64,000 nt of DNA from Devriesea agamarum (GTDB taxonomy: Bacteria; Actinomycetota; Actinomycetes; Actinomycetales; Dermabacteraceae). Below are positions 10,581 to 48,306 of the stretch, piece by piece (position 1 is the stretch's first letter; the number at the start of each line of letters is the position of its first letter). The stretch is taken from assembly GCF_900070355.1 (NCBI RefSeq), contig NZ_LN849456.1:2480001-2544000 (forward strand), given 5' to 3'. The notes beneath the pieces are model-generated. The model searched no databases and was not told the origin of the DNA. It saw only the letters and a program-made list of their open reading frames with translations. Made by a program: the position numbers and the translations under genes.

Positions 10581-10813
10581 TGGCAGCGACGAAACTCACC
10601 GCGACCGAACTGGACGCGATGGACGACCAGAAGCTGGCCGCCGAGCTAGCCAAGGCTAAGGACGAGCTGTTCAAGCTCCGTTTCCAGTCAGCCACGGGGC
10701 AGCTTGAGAGCCACGCCCGTCTGCGCTCGGTGAAGAAGGACATCGCGCGGATCTACACGATTCTGCGCGAACGCGAGCTGGGGATCCGCCAGGCTCCCGA
10801 CGCCGCCGAGTGA
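10580..10813 (+). CDS. rpmC: 50S ribosomal protein L29
   Basis: 77 aa, a helical hairpin protein at the tunnel exit. The conserved [14 protein letters not shown] is present. Overlaps rplP by one base at its start. Confidence 0.96.
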
Positions 10814-10830
10814 AAGCGAAGCGAGGAGAC

Positions 10831-11130
10831 ATGAGCGAGAACCAGAATCAGGCCCCGGCCGTTGAGGCCGAGGGTGTTGAGCGCCCCTACCGTAAAGTGC
10901 AGCGCGGCTACGTCGTCTCGGACAAGATGGATAAGACCATCGTGGTCGAGGTCGAAGAGCGCGTGAAGCACTCTCTTTACGGCAAGGTTATGCGCAAGAC
11001 CAAGAAGTTTAAGGCCCACGATGAGGAGAACACCGCCGGTATCGGCGACCGCGTCCTCATTATGGAGACTCGGCCGCTGTCGGCCACCAAGCGGTGGCGT
11101 CTGGTCGAGATCCTCGAAAAGGCCAAGTGA
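10831..11130 (+). CDS. rpsQ: 30S ribosomal protein S17
   Basis: 99 aa. I chose the ATG at 10831 ([13 protein letters not shown]) over the GTG at 10810 because GAGGAG lies just before it. The OB-fold core begins at [16 protein letters not shown], after a 20-residue acidic N-terminal extension. Last gene before the S10/spc interruption, and followed by a strong terminator. Confidence 0.95.
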
Positions 11131-11165: not shown

Positions 11166-11214
11166 CCCCGGTGGGCCGGTTCTCTACGGAGGACCGGCCC
11201 ACCGGGGTTTTGCG
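11166..11214 (+). terminator. Intrinsic terminator after rpsQ
   Basis: A 15-bp perfect stem (CCCCGGTGGGCCGGT at 11166-11180 and its complement near 11193-11207) is followed by TTTTG. It ends the S10 operon, so the rplN group downstream must have its own promoter. Confidence 0.9.
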
Positions 11215-13642: not shown

Positions 13643-13643
13643 C

Positions 13644-14534: not shown

Positions 14535-14595
14535 GTAGATTCATATCAGTGCTTGTTGAGTATTGCAGGCTAAATTTGCGGTTTAATTAATTGTA

Positions 14596-14625
14596 GGTCG
14601 GTCTGCCTGTTTGGGTAGGCCGACC
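14596..14625 (+). terminator. Hairpin after the first ABC pair, possible terminator
   Basis: A 12-bp stem (arms 14596-14607 and 14614-14625) including two G-T pairs lies 60 bases after the permease stop. The lack of a T-run makes termination uncertain. Confidence 0.5.
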
Positions 14626-14824
14626 CTCTGCTGACATGGGCGTCATAATTTAACCATACAGTCGTAACCGGCTAGTGAACTCGGCATGCTGCCGTGTGAT
14701 ATGTTCGATGTCTACAGTGCTGTCCGAGATGGCGTTGCAGTGTCGTGTATAGAATGATACGAAAGAGTTCATTGGGATTCCAACTATAGTATTGTATCGC
14801 CTTGTCGACTTTCGGGGAGGGGGT

Positions 14825-14899
14825 ATGGTAAATTTGTGTAAATACTATTCCTGCTATCTAGTTAACAGATGTTGCAGCTCTTCAATTTTTATGACATAA
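14825..14899 (+). CDS. Possible 24-aa cysteine-rich peptide
   Basis: ATG to TAA gives 24 residues with four cysteines (positions 5, 10, 16, 17), several tyrosines and a serine run. GGGGAGGGGG lies just upstream at a suitable distance. It lies between two transport systems of bacteriocin type, where a small peptide could be expected. A frame of this length is easily found by chance, and no known precursor motif is visible. Confidence 0.25.
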   Translation: MVNLCKYYSCYLVNRCCSSSIFMT

Positions 14900-14908
14900 A
14901 AATGTCAT
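14891..14908. promoter_or_regulatory. Inverted repeat ATGACAT-4-ATGTCAT
   Basis: Perfect 7-bp arms around AAAA, 145 bases before the 15053 gene. Size and symmetry fit a regulator binding site. No regulator gene is adjacent. Confidence 0.4.
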
Positions 14909-15020
14909 CCCGTTAAATCTGTCCTTTTGCTGAAAAATATTCACTTAATGAATATAAGCGTACGTCATGATGGGTGATCATCAGTATCGCTAAGTTGTCT
15001 GCTAAAAAATATTGAACTGT

Positions 15021-15042
15021 CAATTCCAATTGAGTGGAATTG
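15021..15042. promoter_or_regulatory. Inverted repeat CAATTCCA-6-TGGAATTG
   Basis: Perfect 8-bp arms with a 6-base spacer, ending 11 bases before the ATG at 15053. It occupies the place of the ribosome binding site, so it could be an operator or a translation-blocking hairpin. Confidence 0.5.
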
Positions 15043-15052
15043 GCACCTCTTT

Positions 15053-17059
15053 ATGTTTGTCTTCATCCTACTTAAGCTGGTATGCGTGGTCCTTCGTTTC
15101 TATCTGCGTTTTTCGTGTGTCATCTTCGCCTTGATGCTGGGATTTTTTACGGTCACCGTGATCCAGCAAGATGAGGCCAAATTTCCGATGGGGACCCAGC
15201 AAAGCTTGACCCTGATGCTGGATCAAAGCCAGGCATTGAAAAGCGAGGTGGCTCAAAGCCTGGATGCCGTCGCGCAAGAAACTGGAATATCGCTGTATAA
15301 AGACGGAACAGGACTGAGTACCGATCAGGGTGATCGCACGCTAATCGGCTTTGGACGTGTTTCATTAGGTAAAATACCTTGGTTCTCTCCAGGGGGTAAA
15401 GGTGCCGTGGTTGGACCGCACGACATTGGCGATGCGCCGCTCGGTGGCCGCTATGTCACCAGTGAATGCGACGCATCATGTCAGGAACAACTCTCAACCT
15501 GGGCAAAAGGCCACGGAGCGGAAATCAACTGGGGGCCAATACGGAGCCTTCATCAGCACATTCAAGGTTTTTTGCTGAACACGGGTACCGGTATGGCGCT
15601 CATATCGGCAATCCTTTTGGTTATTGCGGCTTTCATCGCGCTCACCTCAGCATCTGCACGAACCAATAACCTCCTGCTGATGGGAGGGGTCTCGCTTCGA
15701 CGGATCCAGGCTAGAGCAACCATCTCCCCAACCCAGACGATTCTTGCCTGGAGCGCATGTGGCGCTGCTATATGTTGCGGATGGATCATTGCTACCCGCG
15801 GGGCTCAGCATATCCAAAAGTTCTTAAGCTATTGGTTAGTTTTGGCAGCACTCTTTATCGGCGTTATGGTTGTGATCGTTGCGCTAAGCGCTAGAGTATT
15901 CCGGCCTAGCATCGGAAATGTGGCGGCTCGGCGAGTCCCTTTAGTGAAGTTACGGATTGCTGGTATTGGGGTACGTCTTTGTATTGTGATACTGGTTGCC
16001 GTAATGGTCCCATATAGCTTAACAATGTTGTTAGGTGCGCAAGCTGTTCAAAAACAAGCTGAACGGTGGAACAACGTTGGTGATGCGGTGTCGGTCTCGT
16101 TCCTGACGGCTATTGATGATGCTGCTTACCGCGCCAGTTTTCTAGAAAACCTAAACCGCACAATGGACTCGGCAGATGTGCGTCGGAACCTGCTGCTCTC
16201 ATTGCCACTCGATCGGAACGTCGAAGTTCCTCCGTCTGCTCTCGGTGAATATGACCATATCGTCATAGTCTCTGAATCCTTCCTGCGACAAATGAACTAC
16301 ACTGGCAACGGTGCGCCTACATCGAAAAAGGTCGATTTTATAGACGGCGGCAATCTGTCTCCTGAACTGAGCGGGATGTTGTACGAGAGCCTGCAAATCC
16401 TCGTGAAGGATCCGTCACAGATTTCTCGTCATATTCGATACGCGGCTATCCCGGGAGTATCGGATTTCCCGATTTTAGGCCACGGATATACAAGTGCCTC
16501 CAACCCTCTGCTCCTCGTGGTTGATGATCCAGTATCGGTGTTCAAAACCGAGGCTTTTCTGGAACCGGCTATAGCGTCGGGAAATCTAGTCTTCTCACAG
16601 CCGGAGCAGGTCAAAACTGTTTTTGCGCGCAACGGTGTGACCTCAATGGTTTCGTCTGTCGATTCCGTGGCGGCTAGCTATCGGATCGTTGCCCGACAAG
16701 CCAGCGAGCAGGTACGCGATACGCTCGCGGGAATCGCGGTGGCCGTGCTCTCTGTGGGTATTTCAGCAATCCAGGGCGCGGGTCTGTGGGCCGGCGCGCG
16801 GCGCAGGCTGATCTTTGCCCGGCACTCGTTCGGAGTTTCGTATTTGGCTATCTCCGCCCGTGCGCTCTTACTCGAAGGCATCGTAGCGGCTTTCGCGGCA
16901 GCCATAGCCTTGCTCGTGGCCTGGGTGCAGGGTCTTTCCGTGGATTTAATCATCGCCAGTTCGATTGCGGTTCCCTTGATCTATATCGGTTTATGTGTGG
17001 CGTGCTACCGGTTCGCGGCTCATGCGGCCTTTCGCACTGTGGTGGGGCGCCATGCCTAA
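15053..17059 (+). CDS. Bacteriocin-associated multi-pass membrane protein (putative immunity/export permease)
   Basis: 668 aa. An N-terminal membrane segment (about 15-37) is followed by an extracellular region to about 170, a group of four segments (about 179-196, 230-249, 262-284, 311-330), a large external domain (about 335-555), and three C-terminal segments (562-585, 606-628, 634-655). Length and topology fit the bacteriocin-associated integral membrane family that is paired with lactococcin-972-group ABC ATPases. The ATPase at 17267 fits that partner. No ribosome binding site is visible at the ATG. I found no lactococcin-972-like precursor. Confidence 0.75.
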   Translation: MFVFILLKLVCVVLRFYLRFSCVIFALMLGFFTVTVIQQDEAKFPMGTQQSLTLMLDQSQALKSEVAQSLDAVAQETGISLYKDGTGLSTDQGDRTLIGFGRVSLGKIPWFSPGGKGAVVGPHDIGDAPLGGRYVTSECDASCQEQLSTWAKGHGAEINWGPIRSLHQHIQGFLLNTGTGMALISAILLVIAAFIALTSASARTNNLLLMGGVSLRRIQARATISPTQTILAWSACGAAICCGWIIATRGAQHIQKFLSYWLVLAALFIGVMVVIVALSARVFRPSIGNVAARRVPLVKLRIAGIGVRLCIVILVAVMVPYSLTMLLGAQAVQKQAERWNNVGDAVSVSFLTAIDDAAYRASFLENLNRTMDSADVRRNLLLSLPLDRNVEVPPSALGEYDHIVIVSESFLRQMNYTGNGAPTSKKVDFIDGGNLSPELSGMLYESLQILVKDPSQISRHIRYAAIPGVSDFPILGHGYTSASNPLLLVVDDPVSVFKTEAFLEPAIASGNLVFSQPEQVKTVFARNGVTSMVSSVDSVAASYRIVARQASEQVRDTLAGIAVAVLSVGISAIQGAGLWAGARRRLIFARHSFGVSYLAISARALLLEGIVAAFAAAIALLVAWVQGLSVDLIIASSIAVPLIYIGLCVACYRFAAHAAFRTVVGRHA

Positions 17060-17270
17060 CCACGTGAACCGAGGGCCGGAGTATGCGCTCCGGGGACTGG
17101 CGCCGCAGGTATCGCCGCACTGGGAACCCACACGCCACGGGACGGTGTGGTGTCCATTGGCATATCTCCGAGCGCCTTTACATGAAGAATCCCTGCGCGA
17201 ATACCGCCCCATAAACACCGTCAAGATCTCGATATTTACCGAGTGCTACTTACTAAAGGGGATGTCATGA
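17052..17270 (+). CDS. Small 72-aa protein coupled to both neighbours, unknown function
   Basis: ATG at 17052 overlaps the end of the upstream membrane gene by 8 bases, and its TGA at 17268-17270 overlaps the ATG of the ATPase at 17267 by 4 bases. GGTGGGG precedes the start. These double overlaps suggest a true middle gene of a three-gene operon. The product is soluble, with many Pro, Arg and His and two cysteines. It resembles no family I know. It could be a peptide substrate, a regulator, or just a chance open frame. Confidence 0.45.
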   Translation: MPNHVNRGPEYALRGLAPQVSPHWEPTRHGTVWCPLAYLRAPLHEESLREYRPINTVKISIFTECYLLKGMS

Positions 17271-17994
17271 AATTAGAGGTGCGGGACCTAGCCGTTGACA
17301 TCGGCCACCGCAAGATATTTAGCGATGTGAACCTGTCATGCCAGTCCGGCCAGCTCGTGGCCCTCGTCGGCGCTTCCGGGTCGGGTAAAACCACGCTGCT
17401 GAACTGTCTGGGGCAGTTGCAACGGGCCAGTTCAGGAAGCATTCGGATCAACGGTGAGGAAGCTTCGCACTGGTCAGACCGTAGGCGCGCCCGGTTCTGG
17501 CGGCAAAGCGCGGCCTTCGTATATCAGGACTACGGTATCGTCGAAGAAGAATCGGTCGGGTTCAACGTGGCGCTCTCCGACATCCCGGTATTCCGTCGCC
17601 GCCCACGGATCACCAACCGGCTACGCGAATGCTTGGACGCGGTCGGCCTCGGAGGCCGTGAATCTGAACCAGTGAGCGTTCTGTCCGGGGGAGAGAAACA
17701 GCGGTGTGGAGTGGCCAGGGCGCTATATAAGAAGGCGGAGTGCCTATTCGTCGATGAGCCGACCGCGTCTCTAGATGCGGCCAACCGCAAGGCCATCTCC
17801 GAGCTTCTGGTCAGCTCTGCCCGCTCGGGAGCTCTCGTGATCGTTGCAACCCATGACGACCAGCTCGCCGCCGAAGCCGACCAAACCCTCCTGCTCAGCT
17901 GACCGGCAGCGCCTGAAGTTCATTCCAGTGCGCCCAGCTGATCAGCCGTTCCGCCAAACTGGACGGCCCCACAAAGCCCACTGGCGCCGCAGGT
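17096..17994 (+). repeat. 15-bp direct repeat flanking the ABC ATPase gene
   Basis: ACTGGCGCCGCAGGT occurs at 17096-17110 and again at 17980-17994, with similar CGCC-rich bases after each copy. The two copies bracket the ATPase gene. Feature limits span both copies. Confidence 0.6.
17267..17902 (+). CDS. ABC transporter ATP-binding protein, bacteriocin-export (lactococcin 972 group) type
   Basis: 211 aa. Walker A is GASGSGKTT (about residues 34-42), the signature LSGGEKQRCGVARAL, Walker B LFVDEPTASLD, and the switch histidine is in ATHDD. I chose the ATG at 17267 because AAAGGGG lies just before it; a GTG at 17243 is in frame but lacks a site. Small size and the SGGEKQR signature fit MacB/LolD-type ATPases used by bacteriocin-associated permeases. 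The partner should be the 668-aa protein encoded just upstream. Confidence 0.88.
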   Translation: MKLEVRDLAVDIGHRKIFSDVNLSCQSGQLVALVGASGSGKTTLLNCLGQLQRASSGSIRINGEEASHWSDRRRARFWRQSAAFVYQDYGIVEEESVGFNVALSDIPVFRRRPRITNRLRECLDAVGLGGRESEPVSVLSGGEKQRCGVARALYKKAECLFVDEPTASLDAANRKAISELLVSSARSGALVIVATHDDQLAAEADQTLLLS

Positions 17995-18389
17995 CGCCCC
18001 GCATGAGCAAGGTCATAGTCTCAGCCGTGTTAGACCCCTATCGCCGCTTGTGCGCCATCCCGTATGCTTGACGGGTTGCGAATCCGCGCACTCGAATATC
18101 GCGCCCACAGTGCATGCCATCCCAGATGGCAGCATCACGGGAATCGTCCGCGAGGACGAGGCGCTAGGGAAGCGGAGGTAGCGGACACTGCGATGGACCC
18201 CGACGGAGACCTCGCACCGGATGCAAATTCGTGTGCCCGAGTCTGTCGGAGGTTTTTTCGTGCCCAGTGCCCGCCCAGACCGCGGTCTGGGCAACAAGTC
18301 CACCATCCGTTCCGCAAGGCTCACCCCGGTCCACGGCCCTCGGCCCGTCCGCCGGGACCCGAGAACCGGCGAGACGACAGGAGTACGTA
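17903..18389. other. Intergenic region: end of the interruption and spc operon leader
   Basis: 487 bases without a convincing gene. GC content returns to the ribosomal level. A possible promoter for rplN has TTGACG at 18068-18073, but no clean -10 box follows at 17 bases. A 20-bp palindrome lies at 18273-18292. The second 15-bp repeat copy is at 17980-17994. Confidence 0.55.
18273..18292 (+). promoter_or_regulatory. 20-bp perfect palindrome in the rplN leader
   Basis: GCCCAGACCG followed at once by its reverse complement. It lies 97 bases before rplN and could fold as a cruciform-like RNA stem or bind a dimeric protein. spc operons are autoregulated by S8 in E. coli, but this element does not obviously mimic that site. 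Confidence 0.45.
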
Positions 18390-18758
18390 GTGATCCAGCA
18401 GGAGTCGCGACTCAAAGTCGCCGACAACACGGGGGCGAAGCAGATTCTCTGCATCCGTGTTCTCGGTGGCTCCGGTCGCCGTTATGCGAGCATCGGCGAC
18501 GTCATCGTGGCGACCGTCAAGGACGCCATCCCCGGCGGCAACGTCAAAAAAGGCGACGTCGTCAAAGCCGTCGTCGTGCGCACGACCAAGGAACGTCGTC
18601 GTCCCGACGGTTCCTACATCCGTTTCGACGAGAACGCGGCGGTGATCCTCAAGAACGACGGCGAGCCGCGTGGCACCCGTATCTTCGGCCCGGTTGGCCG
18701 TGAGCTGCGCGATAAGCGGTTCATGAAGATCATCTCGCTGGCACCGGAGGTGCTGTGA
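18390..18758 (+). CDS. rplN: 50S ribosomal protein L14
   Basis: 122 aa, exact family length. The GTG start at 18390 gives [18 protein letters not shown], and ACAGGAG lies 6 bases upstream. First gene of the spc-like operon. L14 forms part of the 30S-50S bridge B8. Confidence 0.97.
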
Positions 18759-35050: not shown

Positions 35051-37465
35051 TTACCCTGCGAAATACCGTGGCAGCGTGGCCCGCGATGCCTGCGCAAGTT
35101 GCGAAAGCGGAAGACGGAACTGGTCCTGGACCTCAAGCGCGTCACCTGTGGTCACACCGAGCCGAAGCATCGGGAAACCGCGTGCCGTGCACATGTCGGT
35201 AAACCGGACCTCTTCGCTGCGCGGGACCGATACTAAAGCGCGTCCTTGCGACTCTGAGAAGAGAGCGACGAACGGGTCGATCCCGTCGCGCTCACATAGG
35301 CCATCCAGCACAATCCGTGCACCCACTGAGAATCGCAGGCAGGAATCAACCAGTGCCTGGGCGAGACCACCTTCGGACAGATCGTGTGCCGCATCGACCA
35401 TTCCGTCGCGGGAGGCTGCGACCAGGATCTCGGCGAGTTCCCGTTCGACCTTCAGGTCCACAACCGGGGGCATGCCACCGAGGTGGGAATGGATGACATC
35501 CGCCCAGGCGCTGCCTGATAGTTCCTCTCGCGTCGTCCCGAGCAGGAAAATCGCTTGGCCCTGATCTTTCCATCCGGACGGGGTCCGCCGGGACACATCG
35601 TCGAGTACCCCGAGAACACCCACCACGGGCGTGGGGGGGATAGCCGAGTCGATCAGCCCAGGTTCACCGGTGGAGTTGTACAGCGACACGTTGCCACCGG
35701 TAACCGGCACCTCCAACTCGCGGCAGGCATCGGCGAGCCCCGTGATGGCCTGGACCAGCTGCCACATCGGGCCGGGATCTTCCGGTGAGCCGAAGTTCAA
35801 ACAGTCGGTGACCGCGAGCGGTTTCGCACCAGTGGTTGCGACATTGCGGTAGGCCTCAGCCAGTGCCGCCTGAGCTCCCGTATACGGATCCAATTTCGCG
35901 TAGCGACCGTTAGCATCGGTGGCTATGGCCACGCCAAGCCCGGTGCTCTCATCCACGCGTACAATTCCTGCGTCGTCCGGCATCGCCAAAGCAATGTTGC
36001 CGCCGACGTACCGGTCGTACTGGTCGGTGATCCACGCGCTGGATGCCAAGTTCGGGGAACTCGCTAGTGCGAGAACGGTCTGCGCGAGGTCCTCGCCGCT
36101 GCTGGGTCGAGGTAACGCTTCGGCGCGGTCAGCTTGCAGCTCATCTTGCCAGCTGGGCCGGGCATATGGACGCTGATAGGTCGGCCCCTCGTGCGCAACC
36201 GTCTTCGGATCGACATCGACAATCCGGTGTCCGTTGTGGTCGATGGTGAGGCGGCCAGTGCCGGTGACTTCACCGATGACCGCGGTCTCCACATCCCATT
36301 TCGCTGTCGTGTTGAGGAATTCTTCAAGCTTGTCCGGACGCACCACGGCCATCATGCGTTCCTGGGACTCCGACATCAGAATCTCGCCAGCGGTTAGGGT
36401 CGGATCGCGCAGCAGAACCTTTTCAAGGTCCACGTGCATCCCGCCGTCACCGTTGGATGCGAGCTCACTGGTGGCGCAGGAAATTCCTGCTGCGCCGAGG
36501 TCCTGGATGCCTTCGACAAGGCCGTGGGCGAACAGGTCCAGGCAGCATTCGATCAGAACCTTCTCCATGAAGGGGTCGCCCACTTGCACACTCGGGCGCT
36601 TGGTGGGACCACCTTCGGTGAACGTTTCCGACGCCAGAATGGACGCGCCGCCGATTCCGTCGCCCCCCGTGCGGGCACCGAACAGCACCACTTTGTTTCC
36701 GGTGCCTGACGCATTGGCGAGGTGGATGTCGTCATGGCGCATCACCCCGACGCACAGGGCGTTCACCAGCGGGTTTCCCTGGTAGCAGGGGTCGAATACG
36801 GTTTCGCCGCCGATGTTGGGCAGGCCAAGTGAGTTGCCGTAGCCACCGATCCCGGCGACGACGCCGTGGACGACGCGCGCGGTGTCGGGATGGTCGACGG
36901 CGCCAAATCGCAGCTGGTCCATCACCGCGACGGGGCGCGCACCCATGGAGATAATGTCGCGCACGATGCCGCCCACACCGGTGGCCGCGCCCTGATAGGG
37001 CTCGACGAAGCTGGGGTGGTTGTGCGATTCGACCTTGAAGGTCACCGCCCATCCTTCGCCGATATCCACCACGCCTGCGTTTTCTCCGATGCCAACCAGC
37101 AGGTGCTGGCGCATGGCCTCGGTGGTTTTGTCGCCGAACTGGCGCAGATGCACTTTGGAGGATTTGTAGCTGCAGTGCTCGGACCACATGACGGAGTACA
37201 TGGCGAGTTCCGCTGCTGTGGGACGTCGCCCTAGGATTTCGCGGATGTGCTCGTATTCGTCGCTGGTCAACCCCAGGTCAGCGAACGGTAGGGGTAGATC
37301 TGGGGTTGCGGCTGCGTGCTCAACCGTGTCCGGCGGTTGTGCCTGCGGGGAGTGTGCCCCCGAGGGCTGTACCGACGGGGTTTTGGTCCCCGGGGATGGT
37401 TGGTTGGCGGTCGCTGGGTTCATCGCAGGGGGAGTGGTCGGCGCTGGGGGCTCGGTGGCGGTCAT
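35051..37465 (-). CDS. purL: Phosphoribosylformylglycinamidine synthase subunit PurL
   Basis: 804 aa from ATG 37465. This is the small-type PurL, which needs PurS and PurQ as separate subunits; both are at 61842-62824. The [12 protein letters not shown] motif and the two AIRS-type halves are present. The first 60 residues are a Pro/Ala/Thr-rich extension without counterpart in other species, so the true start may be later. It catalyses the ATP-dependent step 4 of purine synthesis. Confidence 0.94.
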
Positions 37466-37498
37466 ACGGCGTGAAGATCCCGTCGTGGAGCAGGGGCG

Positions 37499-37517
37499 GA
37501 TGACGCGCACTAGTCTA
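37499..37517 (-). promoter_or_regulatory. purL promoter-region motif shared with purS
   Basis: Read on the minus strand: TAGACT followed by A-GTGCGCGTCATC. The same arrangement, TAGAAT followed by G-GTGCGCGTCATC, lies before purS (62858-62876). TAGAMT fits a -10 box. The conserved bases after it may be the transcription start and a binding site. 17 of 19 bases are identical. Confidence 0.6.
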
Positions 37518-38568
37518 CGGTGCGCTCTGTGCGCTGCACGCCCGATGCCCGGGTCCACTTTGGGATGTGCATCCAAGCCTCTCTGTTTGGCAGTGATTAG
37601 AGGTAACAAGTAAGCTATTCTCACTATGCAGCACCGAGTCTACCGAGTACTGGTGCCAAGCTCGTCAGGATATACATCCCGAGAGATGGATTAAGAGATA
37701 TTGTATGCAGGAAGTAACTTCTCCTAAGTTACCCGATCTTAAAATTATAAATTTTAGATAACACAAATGGCAGGGCGTTGTAATCTTACCTCTGTCTATG
37801 AGTTGGTGAAATGCGCGAGATCCTTGTCGCTCTACACAACTGAAACTTCGGTTAGTCAATCGAGAAATAATATAAAGCTACATAGACGGAAAGTGAAAGG
37901 ATTCACTAATATCCCCCATACTGTGTTGCCGTTTATAATGGTTTGCGGTGGCCGTATTTCTGTGGCAATATATTAGGCCAATATCGCATGGATGATTGCG
38001 TTGACACTAGTGGAATTGGTTGCTAAGGGACACTCAACTCTAACCGTTTTTACAAAATGACACACAACGCGGCGCGCGGCTATCTCTACGCGGTGCGTCC
38101 AGGGGTTTAAAGGGTGTTGGACTTTGAGGTTGAAACGCAGGACGAACGTTTCTTGAGAAATATAAATAATGCATGAGCTCGCTTTAATTGCATCACATTA
38201 GCGAGGCTTTTGCACTGGCTAAATATTAGGCAAATAGAACACTTATAGCGCAGATTTAAGCAAATAAATCGCTAAGCGCTTTATTGTGTAAATAATATGC
38301 CCACCAAAGAGTGTATTTATCAAAAATATTATTTAAAAGTTATAGCATAGCAAATAAAAATATATCGGAAATAATTATAAAACCGTAAAAGTCTATAAAT
38401 AACGGGTGATTAAGTATTTAAGCAATACGCAAAGGGGGACATTGGTCCCGCGAAAATGTTGAATTATGTTGATCAGGATTCGATAAAAGTAAAGAAAAAG
38501 TAAAATCCTGTTGTGATTGCAGCTGGTTTCCCAATAGATTTAAGTCCAGGCACAGAGAGGAGCCTAAA
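37518..38568. other. AT-rich non-coding left flank of the lanthipeptide cluster
   Basis: About 1.05 kb, with composition near 35% GC by eye and many A/T runs. A 69-codon plus frame at 37767-37976 has no ribosome binding site or resemblance and is not called. An inverted repeat GGGAC-4-GTCCC at 38436-38449 lies 120 bases before lanKC and could be an operator. No integrase or transposase remnant is visible. Confidence 0.6.
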
Positions 38569-41121
38569 GTGGATAGTCAAGCCGAGAGATACTCTTTCGC
38601 ATCATCTCTATACTATGAGCGACCTCACTATGGCACGCACGAGATTGATAGGGTGCCACCGGAACTTGAGGTGGAAGTTGATGGGTATAAGCGGCATGTT
38701 TCTGACGCCTGGATTGAATACACTCCGTGCGATCTCAATTTGCCTGAACAAGGTTGGAAAGCTCATATCGGCGCAACTCCAGATAACTATCTTAAAACAA
38801 TTAATCTAGTTAGTCGTTTCTGTTTTAAAAAAGGATTCGCTTTTAAAAGCGCTCCCACGTTAAGAAGCTTTATATTTGCGTGCTCGAAAGCGGCCTCAAG
38901 AGAATCCTCTGGGAAGCTTATAACAATATATCTTACAAGCCAGAAGGATTTAAAAGTACTCGTTGAAGAATTGGCTCCTATTCTGCGCGGCAAGCCGGGT
39001 GCATATATTTTAAGCGATCTCCAAATCGCCGATAGTCAACTATACGTCCGATACGGGGCGTTCAAAAAAATGCTGTGTGCTACCACCAATGGCATAGTGT
39101 TGCCTGCTATTAAAACTCCCAAAGGCGATTTTGAAGCCGATCCGAGATTACCAATCTTTAGGCCACCGAAATGGGTTAAAATTCCAGAGGTACTACAAGA
39201 ATCGGTAGCTCGTCGAAGTGATCAGGAAAAAGAAAAGTTTCCTTACCGCGTGATTGATGTGTTGCACTATTCAAATTCCGGAGGTGTCTATTTATGTAGT
39301 GACGAAAGTGGCCAAGAGTTTGTTGTAAAAGAGGCGAGAACTCATGCTGGACTTGATGCAGGGTTAAATGATGCCGTTGTCAGACTAAAAAATGAAGTTA
39401 ACATACTCGAACATCTCAACACTGTATGTTTAGATGTAAGGGTTCCGGTTGTATTAGAAAAGTTCTCTATTCAATGTAGTGAGTTTGCCGCCTTTAAGCG
39501 AATTCAAGGCCATACGTTCCACCAATTGGCGGCCGAACGTAATCCTTTACTAGGCGACCGCGTTAGCGACTCGCAGATTCAAGAATATACGATTTGGGTT
39601 GAATCGATATTGGCTCAGACGCGAGATATGCTAGGAAAAATTCATGATGCGGGTATTATTTATGGCGATTTACATCCAAAGAATATTTTAATCGACGAAG
39701 AAGGGCAAGTATCATTTATAGATTTTGAAACTGCCTCTTTTGATGTTGTAAACTATGAACAGCGCTTGGCCGCAGCGGGTTTCGGTGCTCCGAAGGGTCT
39801 TGGTGGTATAGATGTGGATCTGTACGCCTTGGAGAGGTTATTGTTATGGGCATATTATCCGCTAGTGTATATGTTAGATGTTGCTCCCACCAAATATGAA
39901 AAGCTTGTAGAACGTATACAGCATAATTATGGGTTACATCTTAAGTTACCACTGCACAGCAAAATCAGTTCTATCACTGATATTGGAAAAAATGCAGATC
40001 TTAAACTTAAGTCCGAGTCAATTTCTAATTCGTTACATCGAGGGTTATTAAATGTTCATGACCCTAACCGAAAAGATAGATTAGTGCCCGGAAACTATAG
40101 GGTTTTCGATTCCCATCCCGCATCTTTTTTTTACGGAAGCTCTGGTGTTATATGGGCTTTAGACAAGTGTGGTTATGAAATTCCCGAGGAATGGATTGCC
40201 TGGCAACGTGAAAGTTATGAAAACCGGAGCTTTAATAGCATTGGTCTAGAGTCTGGTGTTGCTGGTCCAATAATTACGGAAACTTCACTCGGATCGTCGC
40301 GATACATCAAGAGGTTGCTGAAATGCGGACTTCGACTTTTGAATAGCACGCCTCTAATAACTATTCGACACGGTGTTTCTGCTCTATTAGTTGCGCTTGC
40401 TAGGGCGGCGGCGTATGGAGTTGTTGATCACGACCAAATAAAGAGCTGTGCGTTACCGTTAGTGGAAGAAATTAAGAAGCTTGTAAAACTTAACAGCCTT
40501 GCAAGAAACAAATTCACGGCCGATTTTCCATTGCCTACTAACGTTGTTCCTAGGAACTGGGGTTTGATGGACGGTTGGACTGGTGTTTCAGTCGCCTTAA
40601 ATAACTGGGGGAAGTTATTTAACGATTTGGAATGCATTGACCTTGCGAGAGATAGCATCGAGCGGGATATCGCTACACTAAGGGTACATCCTCGGTTTGG
40701 AACTGCTGGCCTTGATAAGGGTTATAAACAAGACCCGTATCTCGAGTCCGGTTCTTCAGGTGTATTCTACGCCGCCAAGCTGATTGGGTACGAACTTGAA
40801 TCAGATATGGAAAATTCTTTAAAACGTGCTTGTGGCTCTCTTCTGTACACTGATTGTGGGATGCTTGCAGGATTAGCCGGTCAGATGTGCGCACTAACTT
40901 ATCAAGGTGATAACACATCTAGCCTGTGTCTTGATAGGTTAGTGCGGGACTACCAATTGTACGGCGTTGAGACTCCCGAGGGGCAGGCGACAACGTTTGG
41001 CGCGTTCGCTCATAAACTATCCTATGACTATGGAACTGGATCAGCTGGGTACTTACTCGCTGTGAGCTATTGTCAGGGAAGTTCAACAGAGTTTATTCCT
41101 CTTGGGATGCCAAGGTTTTAG
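38569..41121 (+). CDS. lanKC: Class III lanthipeptide synthetase LanKC
   Basis: 850 aa from GTG 38569, with GAGAGGAG upstream. Three domains are in order. About 1-200 is the lyase domain that eliminates phosphate from Ser/Thr. About 220-440 is a protein-kinase-like domain (glycine-rich SNSGGVY near 235-241, Lys254 in VVKEA, catalytic GDLHPKN with Asp367, metal-binding DFE at 385). About 510-850 is a LanC-like cyclase (YGSSGVIW, MDGWTGVSV, ESGSSGVFY, YGTGSAGY). The LanC zinc triad (Cys and Cys-His) is not preserved, and this separates class III from class IV LanL. It would dehydrate and cyclise the 37-aa precursor encoded 26 bases downstream. Confidence 0.92.
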   Translation: MDSQAERYSFASSLYYERPHYGTHEIDRVPPELEVEVDGYKRHVSDAWIEYTPCDLNLPEQGWKAHIGATPDNYLKTINLVSRFCFKKGFAFKSAPTLRSFIFACSKAASRESSGKLITIYLTSQKDLKVLVEELAPILRGKPGAYILSDLQIADSQLYVRYGAFKKMLCATTNGIVLPAIKTPKGDFEADPRLPIFRPPKWVKIPEVLQESVARRSDQEKEKFPYRVIDVLHYSNSGGVYLCSDESGQEFVVKEARTHAGLDAGLNDAVVRLKNEVNILEHLNTVCLDVRVPVVLEKFSIQCSEFAAFKRIQGHTFHQLAAERNPLLGDRVSDSQIQEYTIWVESILAQTRDMLGKIHDAGIIYGDLHPKNILIDEEGQVSFIDFETASFDVVNYEQRLAAAGFGAPKGLGGIDVDLYALERLLLWAYYPLVYMLDVAPTKYEKLVERIQHNYGLHLKLPLHSKISSITDIGKNADLKLKSESISNSLHRGLLNVHDPNRKDRLVPGNYRVFDSHPASFFYGSSGVIWALDKCGYEIPEEWIAWQRESYENRSFNSIGLESGVAGPIITETSLGSSRYIKRLLKCGLRLLNSTPLITIRHGVSALLVALARAAAYGVVDHDQIKSCALPLVEEIKKLVKLNSLARNKFTADFPLPTNVVPRNWGLMDGWTGVSVALNNWGKLFNDLECIDLARDSIERDIATLRVHPRFGTAGLDKGYKQDPYLESGSSGVFYAAKLIGYELESDMENSLKRACGSLLYTDCGMLAGLAGQMCALTYQGDNTSSLCLDRLVRDYQLYGVETPEGQATTFGAFAHKLSYDYGTGSAGYLLAVSYCQGSSTEFIPLGMPRF

Positions 41122-41131
41122 AGATGATAGA

Positions 41132-41141
41132 AAGGAGGTGA
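41132..41141 (+). promoter_or_regulatory. lanA: Near-perfect Shine-Dalgarno of the precursor gene
   Basis: AAGGAGGTGA is almost the full anti-16S complement and lies 5 bases before the ATG at 41147. It supports high expression of the precursor and decides its start. Confidence 0.85.
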
Positions 41142-41146
41142 AAAGC

Positions 41147-41260
41147 ATGTCAGTTTTTGAATTGCAAGGGCTGTCTAGCGATGTCACAGTTACGGCGGCA
41201 GTAAGTACCCAGAGCAATCACTGTGATGACACCAGCACGATAAGTCTGTTCTGCAGCTAG
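41147..41260 (+). CDS. lanA: Class III lanthipeptide precursor peptide
   Basis: 37 aa, too short for usual gene finding. The leader has VFELQGL at residues 3-9, the class III leader helix that the synthetase recognises (SapB and labyrinthopeptin leaders have LFDLQ-type motifs). The last 18 residues hold two identical spacings, Ser20-X2-Ser23-X2-Cys26 and Ser30-X2-Ser33-X2-Cys36, the Ser-X2-Ser-X(2-5)-Cys pattern that gives labionin or lanthionine rings. Only two Cys are present and both lie in these motifs. The cleavage site is probably near residues 17-19, but this is inference. The gene lies 25 bases after lanKC, and a terminator follows at once. Confidence 0.85.
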   Translation: MSVFELQGLSSDVTVTAAVSTQSNHCDDTSTISLFCS

Positions 41261-41268
41261 CTGGAATT

Positions 41269-41319
41269 GGGGTGGATGATACTGCATACCCATATGCATG
41301 TTTTATCCACCCCTTTTTT
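41269..41319 (+). terminator. Intrinsic terminator between lanA and the exporter gene
   Basis: The outer stem GGGGTGGAT (41269-41277) pairs with ATCCACCCC (41305-41313), and the inner stem TGCATA (41283-41288) pairs with TATGCA (41293-41298) around CCCA. TTTTTT follows. It starts 9 bases after the lanA stop, so only part of the transcripts should reach the transport genes. Confidence 0.88.
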
Positions 41320-41350
41320 ATATTACCGGCGGCAGTTTATAAGAGTCGAG

Positions 41351-42949
41351 ATGAGTATGATTGCGGCACTGCGAAACGCTTTAAGCCATAAACCGATTCT
41401 ATCAGCTTTTGCAATTTTGTCTATCTGCATTGAAGCTGGACTCTCGGTTGGCCCGGCATTAATTGCTAAAAACATTGTTGATGCCGGAGTCATCTCAAAG
41501 GATATGACCGGGGTGGTATATTGGTCAACAATACTTATGCTTTTAACCTTTACCGTGGGCGGAATAGTATATTTTTCGCAATATGCGTTTGCTGTGATTG
41601 CTGAAGATTCAGTGTATTCTCTTCGGACCAAAGCTATAAGTTCCACACTCGTACGCAATACTCAATTCGTCATTGGGGATGTTCCGACAATAGTAGAGAG
41701 GATTCAAAGGGATATTCTTGCGTGGCGTGAGTTTTTGGCCTTATCGGCACCCCAGTTGTTACGTAGCACTATAGGGTTCGTGGTAGCACTAGCTGCGTTA
41801 GCTTTTTTGGATAACCTGCTATTGATAGTCGCTCTTGCGGCGACTATTCCGTATTTAACTATTATATGCATAATGCGGAAATATGTAAAAAATGCTTCGG
41901 CCCGTGAAATGAATCGCAGGGCTACTGCTACATCGATGATAAGCCAGTTATATTCTGAATCAGCACATCAAACAATTGTTACACTGAATGCCAGTTCCAA
42001 TCCGATAAATTATATAACCGAGCGATTGTTCGGGCAGCGAAATGCGTCGTTAAGCTTACTGCAAACGTCTATTAATTTGCGTTTATCCCTCGATGTCATC
42101 GCTGGTATAGCTACAACAAGCGCTTATCTGGTAGCCTCTATTCACGCGGCAGAAGGGACCGTAAGTTCTGGAGGAATTGTCGCAGCAGCAGCCTTATTCA
42201 TGAAATTACTTAACCCTATTGGATCGGTTGTTAACATAGTCACTATGGCTTCAGGGGCTAAGCTTTCTCTGTCGCGCATAGCAGAACTAACCAAAGGTGC
42301 GAATGGTAATGACTATTGCGGAAAGCCAATTAGCAGCAGTATGACTATCCCCGAAATGCGAATTCACTATTCTAAAGATCGTCAACCTATTTGTGTTGAC
42401 CCTTTCAAAGTTGAGAGAGGTGTACCTGTACGGATCGCAGGCTCCTCGGGCGCGGGTAAGACTACAATAATGAGAACTATATGCGGATTAATCTCAGCTA
42501 ATAGTTATGTTGATGCATGTAGTACAGACTGGACATCAATAGCTCGGTCGTGCTATATTTCTGCTAAGCCATGGATTATTGATGGCACTATTAAAGATAA
42601 TATTCTCCTGTTTAGTGATCCGTCGCTATCAGAAATTAATTCGGCTATAGATGCTTGCTGCCTTCGAGAATTTGTTAATCGACTACCAGATGGCCTAGAT
42701 ACGGTCATCTCAAAAAGCACTCAGGTTTCGTCAGGCGAGATGCAAAGAATAGGAATTGTTCGATGCATTTTAGCGAAACCTGATTTATTAGTTTTAGATG
42801 AAGCTACAAGCAATTTGGACCCTAGAACCGAGCGTGCAGTCTTAAAAAATGTATCTACTCTTATGTCTGATAAATTTTTCATTTATTCGACACATAAAAA
42901 TTCGGATCTGCATAGCAAAGTAGTACATGTAGGAGATTCTCGTGCTTAG
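41351..42949 (+). CDS. ABC exporter half-transporter (TMD-NBD) with degenerate Q-loop
   Basis: 532 aa from ATG 41351; an upstream ATG at 41267 lies in front of and within the terminator and is unlikely. About 5-6 membrane segments come first, then an ATPase domain: Walker A GSSGAGKTT (about 364-372), signature SSGEMQ (460-465), Walker B LLVLDEA with DE at 483-484, His515 in STHK. The Q-loop glutamine position (ISAKPW, residue 405) is alanine, which is unusual. There is no peptidase domain, as normal for class III. It should export the modified peptide. Overlaps the next gene by 8 bases. Confidence 0.85.
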   Translation: MSMIAALRNALSHKPILSAFAILSICIEAGLSVGPALIAKNIVDAGVISKDMTGVVYWSTILMLLTFTVGGIVYFSQYAFAVIAEDSVYSLRTKAISSTLVRNTQFVIGDVPTIVERIQRDILAWREFLALSAPQLLRSTIGFVVALAALAFLDNLLLIVALAATIPYLTIICIMRKYVKNASAREMNRRATATSMISQLYSESAHQTIVTLNASSNPINYITERLFGQRNASLSLLQTSINLRLSLDVIAGIATTSAYLVASIHAAEGTVSSGGIVAAAALFMKLLNPIGSVVNIVTMASGAKLSLSRIAELTKGANGNDYCGKPISSSMTIPEMRIHYSKDRQPICVDPFKVERGVPVRIAGSSGAGKTTIMRTICGLISANSYVDACSTDWTSIARSCYISAKPWIIDGTIKDNILLFSDPSLSEINSAIDACCLREFVNRLPDGLDTVISKSTQVSSGEMQRIGIVRCILAKPDLLVLDEATSNLDPRTERAVLKNVSTLMSDKFFIYSTHKNSDLHSKVVHVGDSRA

Positions 42950-43661
42950 CGTTCAGGAAGTAAGCTTTAATTACCGCAGTGTAGGCCCTAATGAATTTAG
43001 TGTGTCCGGTTTGAATTTAACTGTTCCCGATGGAGGGATAGTGTCTCTCGTGGGCCCTTCTGGTGCAGGAAAATCAACGATTCTAAACATTTTAAGCGGT
43101 ATTGCGTGTCCCACTTCAGGAAAAGTTTTTTGGGATAGCATGGATATATGGGCTATGAATCAGCGACAGCGATTGGCCTTTCGACGCCGCTATATTGGAC
43201 AGATATTTCAAGATTTTCACTTATTGCCGGCTCTAACCCTAAAAGAGAACATTCAACTCTCGGCTCGGTTGGTGGGGCAGAATATCCCACTGAAAAGCAT
43301 AGTGAGTATGTCGGATAATCTTGGCATAGCATCTCTATTGGATAGATTTCCTAGCGAGGTCTCGGGTGGACAACAACAGCGTTGTGCGGTGGCACGCGCA
43401 ATTTTGCTAGGGCCTCGCATACTGTTGGCAGATGAGGCGACTGCTAATCTTGATACTTATACGAGCCTCGAGATTATAAAGGTGTTTCGGCGGGTTGCGG
43501 TTTGTACAGGTTGTGTCGTTGTGCTTTCAACGCATGATCCATTTATTGCCGCTCAGGCCGATTCTGTTCATGTGATACGCGAAGGTATGGTGCATAAAAC
43601 CTTAAAGGCAGTTGCTGCAGAGGACGTTTCTGCAGCGGTAGTCAGGGCGGTTGGAGGATGA
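42942..43661 (+). CDS. ABC transporter ATP-binding protein of the lan cluster (LolD/MacB-like)
   Basis: 239 aa from GTG 42942. Walker A GPSGAGKST (about 38-46), Q-loop FQDFHLL, signature VSGGQQQRCAVARAI, Walker B ILLADEATANLD, switch His in STHD. All catalytic motifs are intact, unlike the preceding half-transporter. Its ends overlap both neighbours by 4-8 bases. The permease at 43658 should be its partner, and the pair probably acts in self-protection or release. Confidence 0.87.
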   Translation: MLSVQEVSFNYRSVGPNEFSVSGLNLTVPDGGIVSLVGPSGAGKSTILNILSGIACPTSGKVFWDSMDIWAMNQRQRLAFRRRYIGQIFQDFHLLPALTLKENIQLSARLVGQNIPLKSIVSMSDNLGIASLLDRFPSEVSGGQQQRCAVARAILLGPRILLADEATANLDTYTSLEIIKVFRRVAVCTGCVVVLSTHDPFIAAQADSVHVIREGMVHKTLKAVAAEDVSAAVVRAVGG

Positions 43662-44935
43662 AATATTACATTCTAAAAACTCTTCGCATTCATCTACTGC
43701 ATGACTGGTGTATAACTTATTCTTGCTTGGCTCTATCGACACTTCTAATTCTATTATTAGACGTAAGCATGTTCAATGGAGCTTTGGGTCCGAAAAGTTA
43801 TCGCGCCGTTTGGTCCTTTGTGGGCATAGGGGTTTTTTTGTGTGGAGTTTTATGTTTAATTGTTCTAAAAAAAGCCATTAGCCTTAGTATCCAAGCCCGG
43901 TCGCGAGAGTGGCGAGTTCTATCGGATATGGGGGTCGCTACTACTGCGTTACGTGCAGGTTACTTTTTTGAGGCTGCATTATCTGGGATGTTGGGCATTA
44001 TTTTGGGAATATTTACAACATTTATATTCAGATACGGATATATGAAACTATTAAGTAAGACAAATCTTTTTCCGCAAGATGGGAGGATATTCCCATCCTG
44101 TGAAGCTGTGCTTATTGCAAGTTCTTTTACTATTTCGCTATTGGTATTTTTGGCTGCATCTGCGGGACCAGGCATTACCTTGATATCACGCCGCCCGTAT
44201 TCGAAATACTGGAATTTTACATGGATTATTTCCAACATTATTGCGCTGGTATTTTTTGCCGGCTCCCTCAGGGCGTATTTGCAACAGTTCTCTTTGGTTA
44301 ATCGGGCTAGTTACTCTGCCGGAGTTGGGATTGCGGCCACGATTTCCGCACTATGTTTGTGTGGATTTATTAGTTCGCTATGGGTTAGAGTTGGACTACG
44401 TTTACTGCGCTCATTTAACATTCCATGTCTGCATCTAGCGTTATCCTATCATCGGGATACTTCAAACCCGTGCCATAGTCTTACCGCTGGAATCCTTGCG
44501 TTTATCAGCTTTTCGGCCATTCCTTTGGTTACCATCAAGGCGACCGATAATGCGCAATTCATGCGAGCGTTTATGGTGCTGCAGCTTCCCATATATATTT
44601 TTGTCAGCGCCAACATGGTAAATATGACTATGGCTGGCGCTGCCTCGTTACGCGAGGATAGTTTGAAGTTACTTGATCTGGGCTATTTGCCTAATCAAAT
44701 CCGGGCCCTAGTCCTTCTAACGTCGTTGATAAGTTGGATTTTAGGTGCGGGATCTGCAGGAGTAGTTATTTTTGGTACCGCGTCGCTTAACCCATATATT
44801 GCTGAGTCTTTCACCACAGGGACTAATTTCACAGCTTTACTTGCTTTTCCCTTCGTTTTAAGCTTTATGTTAGTCATACTGGCTGCTTGTTGGCAGCTTA
44901 GCCGCATGAGAGGATATTTCTATGCTGAAACGTAG
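43658..44935 (+). CDS. Ten-segment permease of the lan cluster
   Basis: 425 aa with about ten hydrophobic segments and no large external domain. Local features resemble FtsX/BceB-like permeases only weakly. The start ATG lies in ATGA with the ATPase stop, and GGAGG is directly upstream. As the ATPase and this gene are coupled, they should form one transporter. Its end overlaps the lipoprotein gene by 14 bases. Function in the cluster (immunity or export) is inferred from position. Confidence 0.75.
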   Translation: MKYYILKTLRIHLLHDWCITYSCLALSTLLILLLDVSMFNGALGPKSYRAVWSFVGIGVFLCGVLCLIVLKKAISLSIQARSREWRVLSDMGVATTALRAGYFFEAALSGMLGIILGIFTTFIFRYGYMKLLSKTNLFPQDGRIFPSCEAVLIASSFTISLLVFLAASAGPGITLISRRPYSKYWNFTWIISNIIALVFFAGSLRAYLQQFSLVNRASYSAGVGIAATISALCLCGFISSLWVRVGLRLLRSFNIPCLHLALSYHRDTSNPCHSLTAGILAFISFSAIPLVTIKATDNAQFMRAFMVLQLPIYIFVSANMVNMTMAGAASLREDSLKLLDLGYLPNQIRALVLLTSLISWILGAGSAGVVIFGTASLNPYIAESFTTGTNFTALLAFPFVLSFMLVILAACWQLSRMRGYFYAET

Positions 44936-45641
44936 TCATATTGGCTTCTTGGGAGTATGTCTGATTTTGGTTAGTTTTTTAACTGGTTGCGACCTGCGGG
45001 GCACAGCTAATGTTAATAGGGATGGAAGTGTGCATGTCGTCGCTACCGCTTCTTTCCCGAAGGCTACCGCTGATGAGCAAAAACTTACATGTGAACGTGT
45101 GCTCAGGGACTTGGTTGGCAATGATTTATCCATATCGGCATTGAAAGTACAGACAAAAAATACCCGCGAAGATTTACTTTGCTCTTTTGAAGGGAGCCTT
45201 GTTCATCATCCGGATGTCGATATTGAAATCAAACACGATGAAATATTGATTTATATTAGCTCAATTGAAAATTTTCCGGAATCATATTTTTCTGTCTCAA
45301 AGTTTAGGTTTACGATCATAATGCCAGGCCTGGTTAAAAGTACTAGTGGTGGTGTTAAACAAGGGAACAAGGTCGAGATCACAGATCTGTCTCAGTTGGA
45401 AAACTTGTCCATCGTGGCTGCAGCGGATGCGGAAAATAGTCTACAAAATCGCGATAAGAAGCCTGAGGATTATCAAAAAGTTGATGGTGCATTTAATGAC
45501 GTGAATGATGATCCTGCCCATCAGTCTGCATGGGAGCGAAATGGTACTTTAATTTTTATCAGTCTTACTATCCTTGTAGTGTTCATGATTGCGGCCGGCG
45601 TAGCTATATTTCACAAATTAAAGAAACGAGGAAAAATCTAG
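44922..45641 (+). CDS. LppM-like lipoprotein with C-terminal membrane anchor
   Basis: 239 aa. A lipobox LTGC is at residues 20-23, so Cys23 should be acylated. The mature part starts DLRGTANVNRDGSVHV, similar in layout to actinobacterial LppM-type domains. A single membrane segment lies at about 208-232 with a KKRGK tail. It is the last gene of the lan transcription unit and overlaps the permease by 14 bases. A surface lipoprotein ending a lantibiotic cluster could bind the product as immunity factor (LanI role), but no LanI sequence resemblance is seen. Confidence 0.65.
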   Translation: MLKRSHIGFLGVCLILVSFLTGCDLRGTANVNRDGSVHVVATASFPKATADEQKLTCERVLRDLVGNDLSISALKVQTKNTREDLLCSFEGSLVHHPDVDIEIKHDEILIYISSIENFPESYFSVSKFRFTIIMPGLVKSTSGGVKQGNKVEITDLSQLENLSIVAAADAENSLQNRDKKPEDYQKVDGAFNDVNDDPAHQSAWERNGTLIFISLTILVVFMIAAGVAIFHKLKKRGKI

Positions 45642-45855
45642 ATTAGGTATATCTAGTTCCTAGATTGGTTGGTTTGGGTTCCAAGTTTCAGTGTTTGATT
45701 TTATTGGGCGATAAGCTATAATTTGTAGCGTCCCGGGCGATCGACTCTACTACCTCGAACGGTTTGCTTGATAGCTATCCAGAGCGGTTATGGCTGCGAC
45801 CCGATATATTTGGAATCCGGATTTTAGATTAATTCTTGAATGATTTATTAGATAA

Positions 45856-46041
45856 TTGGTTATTCTGTGTTGGGCGGTGTTGTGGGAATCCGATGGGTGG
45901 ATTTCTGAAGGTGTTATCCACGGCGGTTTCGGTAATATCATGTATGCCGGGATTATGATGCTTGTAGGAGCCTTAGAAGAGGTAGGAAGCAGTTTGTTGG
46001 TGGAGGCTGTGCTCACGCGTCGACGCGTGATCGCGGCCTAA
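45856..46041 (+). pseudogene. Possible 3' remnant of a membrane protein gene
   Basis: The last part of this frame reads as a good membrane-protein C-terminus (GVIHGGFGNIMYAGIMMLVG, then an acidic turn, then a basic VLTRRRV end) and stops at 46039-46041. There is no plausible start or ribosome binding site. It lies at the right border of the AT-rich island, just where GC content rises. It might be the tail of a transporter S-component whose front was lost. The rest of the gap 45642-46110 shows nothing else but the palindrome at 46013. Confidence 0.3.
46013..46030. promoter_or_regulatory. 18-bp perfect palindrome
   Basis: TCACGCGTCGACGCGTGA is fully self-complementary without spacer. It lies at the border between the AT-rich island and the GC-rich acyl-CoA dehydrogenase gene, inside the possible remnant frame. 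Confidence 0.5.
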
Positions 46042-46110
46042 GTGCGGATGTGATCTAGCGCCGACCCGTCGGCTTCGGCCGAGTAATCAGTCCCGCCCCA
46101 CGACAGCGCG

Positions 46111-48306
46111 TTATCCGCGAGCGGTTCGCCGGGCCTCTCGCGCCAGGACTTTCTCACTGACCGGCGCGTTTGAGCGTGCCCGTTCACGACGGTGCCAGGC
46201 CGCGGCTTCCTCCTGACGTTGCTTTTCCTCGCCCAGAGCGATAGGCGCCCGCAGGTGTTCAGGAGCGAAGTCAAAACCCGCGACCAAGTCCATGACATGG
46301 GGCCGCAGCTTCCACAGCAACCGGTTGATATATCCCCGCAGCGTGCGGCCACGCTGGGCGGACAATAGGCCGTTGAGCAGATACCAGGACAGCTCGTTTT
46401 CAATCAGCGTGAGCCCGAACAGATCCCTTAGACGCTTTAACGTTTTGTGGGTGCCGGGATCTTTCACCTCGTGTAAGGCGTTCGTAAAGGCTTTCCACCG
46501 CACCAAATCCGCATACGCCCGGGCGGCATCCAGCATTTCGAGCTGGTGACGGTTGACCAGAGCCGCCGCCTTATCCGGGCTGAGCTTGGTGGCTGGGCGC
46601 AGGGCCAGCGCGAGTTCTTCGACGGTGAGCCGGGCCCGCTCGGTGAGCATCGCTTCTTGGAAGTCGGCGTGGCGCATGGTGATAGCAGAGCGTTTAACCG
46701 AACCAGCGTCCACAGCGGTTTGCATGAGGCGATGAAACGGTGTGTGCCGACGGGAGAGAGTTTCAGCCCTCGACGCGAGGTACTTCCCGACCCCGAGCCC
46801 GGCAACCGAGCGAAGCTCCGCCGAATAATCCGCGAGCAGACGCTTAGCCACGAGCTGCAAGAGCACCGTGTTATCGCCTTCAAAGGTGGCGTAGACATCC
46901 AGATCGTGGTGCAGTGAAGTCAGCCGGTTTTCCGCGAGGAAACCCTGTCCGCCGCAGGCTTCTCGGCATTCCTGGATGGTGTCCAGCGCCAGCCGGGTCG
47001 AGGTGGGTTTGAGCGCTGCCGCTAGGGTTTCGAGGTTTTCCCTCGCTTCCGGGGTGTCGCCGCGACCGGAGAAGACCTCGTCGAATCCGATCAGCAGTTC
47101 GTCGTGGGCGAATGCTCCGGCGTAGGTGGCTGCAAGTTTGGGCACGAGGCGGTCCAGGTGCGCCTGATAGTCCAGCAGAACTGTTTCGTCACCCTCACCG
47201 ACGCCGAACTGTCGCCGCTGGGAGGCATAGGTGAGGGCGATGGCTAGCGCTAACTGGGTGGCACGGTTTGCGGCGCCATCGAGGGATACACGGCCTTGAA
47301 CCAGGGTGCTGAGCATGGTGAAGAAGCGTCGCCCGGGTGAGGCGATGGGGGAGGTGTAGGTGCCGTCCGGGGCGACGTCCCCATAGCGGTTGAGCAGATT
47401 GGTACGCGGTACTCGGACCTGGTCAAACCACAACCGTCCATTGTCGATACCGTTTAACCCGCCTTTGGGACCGTCATCGTCGCCGTTCACGCCGGGTAGG
47501 AAGTTCCCCTCGTCATCGCGGATTGGCACGTAGAAGCAGTGCACTCCGTGGTCGATGCCACGGGTGATGAGCCGGGCAAAGACAGTGGCCGCTTTGGCGT
47601 GCAGCGCCGCATTTCCTAGGTAGTCCTTACGCGCGGCGGTGAAGGGGGTGGTGATCACCCACTCGTCGGCAGACTCATCGTAGGTGGCGGTGGTTCCGAG
47701 CGCGGAGACATCCGAACCATGGCCCGTTTCAGTCATCGCAAAAGCGCCCGGGGTGGTCAGAGTCATGGCGTCTTCGACCCAGCGCCGGTGCTGATCTTCG
47801 GTGCCCAGCTGCAAGATAGCGGCCGTGAACAGTCCCCACTGGACCCCCGCTTTAATTTGCAGCGACGGGTCGGCGAGCACAAGTTCTTCAAACCCGGCGA
47901 GATTCGCACCGTGGTCGTTGGCCCCGCCCAAATATTCGGGCAGCATGATGCGGGAGACTCCGTCGCGGGCGAGAAGATGAAGCTGTTCGAGCACCCGTGC
48001 TCGGTGTTCGGCGACGCTGAGGTCGTCTTTACGGTGGAGCTCAGGGCGTTTGACGCGTTCGCGCGCGGTACGGCGCACTTCCGGCCAGGACCCGAGCAGC
48101 ATCGTGCGCAGGATGTCAATGTCTGCTCGGGCTGAATCCGTGGATTTCTCGGAGCTCAGCTCGGACGGGTTTGCATCGACGTGGGGGATTTTTGGACCGA
48201 GCTGGGGGACGGCGTTGCGCAAGCGATTGAGTGGCGCCGAGAGGCTAGACAGGGGGCTGGTGATGTATGACAGGTGACTCGTGCCATTCGGTCGTTGAGT
48301 GGTCAT
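46111..48306 (-). CDS. Acyl-CoA dehydrogenase/oxidase family protein, FadE5-like
   Basis: 731 aa, much longer than classical acyl-CoA dehydrogenases (about 380) and similar in size to acyl-CoA oxidase-like members. The FAD/substrate-binding segment FAMTETGHGSDVSALGTTAT is present, followed by ARKDYLGNAALHAKA. AAGGGA precedes the ATG, which overlaps the TetR stop by 4 bases. The neighbour set (thiolase, FabG4, MaoC hydratase) is that of mycobacterial Rv0241c-Rv0244c, where this enzyme is FadE5. Expected reaction: first oxidation step on acyl-CoA. Confidence 0.85.
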   Translation of the reverse strand: MTTQRPNGTSHLSYITSPLSSLSAPLNRLRNAVPQLGPKIPHVDANPSELSSEKSTDSARADIDILRTMLLGSWPEVRRTARERVKRPELHRKDDLSVAEHRARVLEQLHLLARDGVSRIMLPEYLGGANDHGANLAGFEELVLADPSLQIKAGVQWGLFTAAILQLGTEDQHRRWVEDAMTLTTPGAFAMTETGHGSDVSALGTTATYDESADEWVITTPFTAARKDYLGNAALHAKAATVFARLITRGIDHGVHCFYVPIRDDEGNFLPGVNGDDDGPKGGLNGIDNGRLWFDQVRVPRTNLLNRYGDVAPDGTYTSPIASPGRRFFTMLSTLVQGRVSLDGAANRATQLALAIALTYASQRRQFGVGEGDETVLLDYQAHLDRLVPKLAATYAGAFAHDELLIGFDEVFSGRGDTPEARENLETLAAALKPTSTRLALDTIQECREACGGQGFLAENRLTSLHHDLDVYATFEGDNTVLLQLVAKRLLADYSAELRSVAGLGVGKYLASRAETLSRRHTPFHRLMQTAVDAGSVKRSAITMRHADFQEAMLTERARLTVEELALALRPATKLSPDKAAALVNRHQLEMLDAARAYADLVRWKAFTNALHEVKDPGTHKTLKRLRDLFGLTLIENELSWYLLNGLLSAQRGRTLRGYINRLLWKLRPHVMDLVAGFDFAPEHLRAPIALGEEKQRQEEAAAWHRRERARSNAPVSEKVLAREARRTARG

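Follow-up and report, generated by a model that had tools for sequence, protein, structure and literature searches.

Candidate self-protection genes in a predicted, horizontally acquired class III lanthipeptide operon of Devriesea agamarum

In the ramCSAB cluster for SapB in Streptomyces, the synthetase gene is followed by the genes for the precursor and the ABC exporter. The precursor combines an LQ motif in its leader with two S-x2-S-xn-C motifs, there are two half-transporters (RamA and RamB), and a RamR-type response regulator is encoded next to them. Class III clusters in Brevibacterium consist of LanKC, one or two precursors, and one to three ABC components; several also have a prolyl oligopeptidase, some are located on transferred islands, and one resides on a conjugative element of approximately 96 kb (PMC5719810). 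A protease gene is absent from most of the class III clusters reported (PMC8960859). Self-protection seems little described for class III producers, and among the papers searched we found none that brings together a class III lanthipeptide, immunity, an ABC transporter and a lipoprotein.

Devriesea agamarum lives on lizard skin, where it can cause disease. We analysed a 64-kb stretch of its chromosome (the window, to which the coordinates below refer), in which a first-pass annotation had recognised a class III lanthipeptide cluster within an AT-rich island. The island is clear: an unstranded block at 37625-46110 has a G+C content of 0.431, compared to 0.62 on either side, and its compositional edges coincide with the start of purL (35051-37624, minus strand; named from reading its sequence) and the end of an acyl-CoA oxidase gene (46111-48306, minus strand). 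Since these 2 flanking genes are direct neighbours in 4 relatives of the same family (G020, G041, G043, and G044), the block is a true insertion. No integrase, transposase, other mobility gene, or terminal repeat was found that would explain it, and LanKC, searched at E 1e-20, was absent from the other genomes (47 in the family). In one further relative of the family (G023), unlike in the others, oxidase and purL are separated by 1.1 kb (about 2433-3543 of locus L188), so that DNA may have been gained or lost at this junction more than once. All genes listed in the first-pass annotation, i.e., synthetase, precursor, exporter, ABC pair, and lipoprotein, are indeed found together: 6 tightly packed plus-strand genes at 38569-45641, all with open frames. 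From its sequence, this intact gene set of approximately 8 kb in a genome of the Dermabacter family appears to be a complete operon acquired horizontally. Reading the list of open reading frames by eye, we saw no regulator, kinase, or protease gene in 37625-46110, in agreement with the earlier description; for the protease this is unremarkable, since its absence is the rule for class III clusters (PMC8960859).

The window holds a second AT-rich island (11200-18200; 45-54% G+C), which lies inside a ribosomal-protein operon, between an S17-like gene (10810-11130) and an L14-like gene (18231-18758). Its genes encode a permease, a 668-residue membrane protein, and two ATPases, one of the lactococcin-972 type and the other near the ABC model for gallidermin-type lantibiotic protection.

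The first gene of the operon, lanKC (38569-41121, plus strand, GTG start), encodes a predicted class III lanthionine synthetase of 850 residues with lyase, kinase, and cyclase-like parts. Its NF038151 score of 610 bits exceeds the cut-off of 575, with 832 of the 833 model positions covered, and the protein falls far below the cut-off of the class IV model (227 versus 650 bits). RamC_N and kinase domains are matched, and the solved LanKC chains 8sao and 8sap align end to end with residues 25 to 845. The first-pass annotation had singled out the lyase and kinase residues as a point to check, and those of both parts are kept: K64, H66, and K93 (lyase) and K254, E276, D367, N372, and D385 (kinase) do not vary among 9 aligned LanKC proteins; we take their catalytic roles to be established for both folds. 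The CHG motif, expected to be absent from the cyclase-like part of class III enzymes, was not seen in the C-terminal part when the sequence was read; this part may lack the zinc ligands of LanC. A single-sequence scan of the named genomes yielded no close relative; the nearest ones, recovered in a search with the 9-member alignment, are about 29-34% identical, and plasmid relatives reach at most 31% among the matches listed. The core is typical of class III in its make-up but, given these low identities, divergent in its lineage.

The precursor gene, lanA (41147-41260, plus strand), starts with an ATG 25 bases past the synthetase stop, downstream of AAAGGAGGTG, a strong ribosome-binding site. 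Its 37-residue product, MSVFELQGLSSDVTVTAAVSTQSNHCDDTSTISLFCS, falls slightly short of the cut-off of NF038159, a model for class III precursors (27 versus 30 bits), and matches Pfam RamS weakly (E 0.006). LanA carries an FELQ leader motif and 2 S-x2-S-x2-C labionin/lanthionine motifs (STQSNHC and STISLFC). When the 64-kb window was searched, as a control, for a leader LQ motif followed by two S/T-x2-S/T-x2-5-C motifs, a single site emerged; not one of 400 first-order Markov simulations of the island contained the pattern. Immediately 3' of lanA, a terminator-like hairpin (41262-41320, plus strand; -30.7 kcal/mol, z -6.2) is followed by a U run and is probably a partial terminator. Taken together, the synthetase score above cut-off, the retained catalytic residues, the plausible precursor, and the synthetase-precursor-exporter order support the class III assignment made in the first-pass annotation.

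The remaining 4 genes, also on the plus strand, encode transport-related proteins. The ABC half-exporter (about 41351-42949; start set at the first ATG of the coding frame, excluding an upstream extension) unites a membrane domain and an ATPase (ABC_membrane and ABC_tran). It is followed by an ABC ATPase of the FtsE/LolD/lactococcin-972 type (42942-43661; ABC_tran), whose best models, FtsE (156 bits) and L_ocin_972_ABC (151 bits), are each matched below cut-off, by a 425-residue FtsX-type permease (43658-44935; Pfam FtsX, 27.8 bits, cut-off 25.5), and by a lipoprotein (44922-45641; lipobox LTGC). Successive genes overlap by 8, 4, and 14 bases, which argues that the lipoprotein gene, along with the ATPase-permease pair, is part of the exporter's operon.

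Going by what is known of these protein families, the likely product of the gene set is a small, exported peptide with sulfur bridges. LanKC would recognise the FELQ leader of the precursor, phosphorylate Ser/Thr in STQSNHC and STISLFC, eliminate the phosphate, and close 2 thioether rings, either lanthionine or labionin. Most transcripts may end at the hairpin, which would leave more precursor mRNA than transporter mRNA. The half-exporter would act as a homodimer and export the peptide, and the leader would be trimmed by a peptidase encoded outside the cluster. The genome encodes one M1 aminopeptidase and has 6 strong S9 peptidase matches; a prolyl oligopeptidase of the FlaP type is the less likely candidate, because the precursor contains no proline (this dependence is discussed in PMC5719810).

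To place the transport genes in context, we surveyed 105 LanKC loci, 25 from one genome set and 80 from another, with some overlap. An exporter-type neighbour is present at 84 of them, and in many a half-exporter alone suffices. An FtsX-type permease occurs at 4 loci, which correspond to 3 distinct clusters since 2 of the loci (L056 and L072) look like one. The first-pass annotation had regarded the ATPase-permease-lipoprotein set as extra to the minimal class III layout, and had proposed comparing gene neighbourhoods. The survey refines this view: the lipoprotein was found at none of the 105 loci and is thus specific to the present cluster among those examined, but the FtsE-type ATPase and FtsX-type permease are not unique to it, since they recur as a pair in the 3 clusters. 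Two of these (L070 and L076) have permeases that can be aligned with ours. As the neighbour-search profiles comprise 2 to 5 sequences each, and the permease profile was built from those very loci, distant permease or lipoprotein cases may be missed in these counts. At another locus (L063, 11350-12996), a 548-residue multi-helix membrane protein is encoded directly upstream of the relative's LanKC gene and might be part of that cluster.

With a mean pLDDT of 62, the structure model of the lipoprotein is of modest confidence; it shows a beta-rich domain and, at residues 204-235, a C-terminal helix. Among solved structures it matches LppM best (2nc8; E 2.9e-4), with 12% identity in the structural alignment. 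Only this fold comparison pointed to LppM: the sequence has no match to Pfam LppM, and a profile search against solved chains returned nothing. M1 aminopeptidases further down the fold list were set aside as resemblances of the beta domain. No relatives were found in plasmids or viral contigs. The one relative that stands out clearly is a paralogue elsewhere in this genome, 31% identical and located at 1.22 Mb, in a bacteriocin-like locus (L057 6669-13215; G000:C1, about 1.217-1.223 Mb). Here the paralogue adjoins an ABC ATPase and 2 membrane proteins, and the locus also encodes an ABC-F-like protein and a 204-residue secreted protein that resembles the EntV bacteriocin family weakly (29.8 bits, cut-off 130).

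We therefore regard the ABC pair and the lipoprotein as a candidate self-protection module, similar in action to LanFEG/LanI though of a different family, that may shield the producer's membrane from its own peptide. This is the least certain part of our model, and its chief support, the paralogue at a second bacteriocin-like locus, is circumstantial. The lipoprotein's absence from the 105 other LanKC loci and the modest confidence of its model count against such a role. More broadly, an LppM-fold lipoprotein with an ABC transporter could constitute an undescribed self-protection module for lanthipeptides and other bacteriocins, used here at 2 unrelated bacteriocin-like loci, a generalisation that we offer as speculative. 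The same trio might instead act in export as a second step, or carry lipids or peptides across the envelope. Such a role would fit the overlap of its genes with that of the exporter within a single transcription unit, the presence of one half-exporter compared to two in ramCSAB, and the resemblance of the ATPase to bacteriocin-export and LolD types as well. However, in L070 and L076 a half-exporter stands beside this very type of ATPase and permease, and many LanKC loci manage with a half-exporter alone. We consider such a role rather unlikely.

Another possibility is that immunity is not needed at all, with the product serving as a SapB-like surfactant or signal rather than as an antibacterial compound. 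SapB is a morphogen, and both the gene order and the precursor type recall it; however, the core sequence is unlike that of SapB, the host, a member of the Dermabacteraceae, is not known to be filamentous, and an apparent protection trio is present. We consider this explanation improbable. We regard it as very improbable that the island is silent, or a leftover in decay, from which no product is made. In favour of this are the lack of the two-component system and the prolyl oligopeptidase that accompany the ABC pair elsewhere (L070 and L076) and a frequency of promoter-like sites no higher than in shuffled sequences. Against it, the frames are open, the catalytic residues are kept, the ribosome-binding site, the overlaps between genes, and the hairpin are undamaged, and a missing protease gene is shared with most class III clusters (PMC8960859). 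The reading as a whole, i.e., a complete class III lanthipeptide operon gained by horizontal transfer, with biosynthesis, export, and self-protection by the trio, seems likely to us, although the precursor score below its cut-off counts against it. The core is of a known class III type, and it is the trio of ABC pair and lipoprotein that merits testing. As the operon is intact and stands alone, with a clean empty site in relatives and a trio that may protect the producer, it makes a compact test case. The peptide may also bear on competition among the bacteria of lizard skin.

Compared to ramCSAB, to which the first-pass annotation likened the cluster, the synthetase-precursor-exporter order holds, as do the LQ leader motif and the 2 S-x2-S-xn-C motifs. 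The match is not a full one, because only a single half-transporter of the RamA/RamB type is present (41351-42949). In addition, no RamR-type regulator is seen in 37625-46110, the core sequence differs, LanKC is only about 30% identical, and an FtsX-type ABC pair and a lipoprotein come in addition; SapB-type precursors, such as TGSRASLLLCGDSSLSITTCN, are seen in LanKC loci of relatives. The likeness to the Brevibacterium clusters is judged from gene content, and our block has neither a protease nor a mobility gene. Corynaridin, considered as a possible match, was dropped, being a linaridin. L070 and L076, from relatives of the same order, share the FtsE-type ATPase and FtsX-type permease beside LanKC, precursor, and half-exporter; they differ by an added histidine kinase, LuxR-type response regulator, and prolyl oligopeptidase, and have no such lipoprotein. 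With respect to LanFEG/LanI immunity, lipoprotein and ABC genes are present in the operon and may confer self-resistance; however, LanFEG is an ABC-2 type transporter, whereas the ATPase described here is closest to FtsE and lactococcin-972 types and the permease is of the FtsX type. Finally, LppM (Rv2171) of Mycobacterium tuberculosis is likewise a lipoprotein with a beta-rich folded domain, set apart by the low structural identity and the lack of a Pfam match, and its possible structural counterpart in D. agamarum is encoded within a lanthipeptide operon.
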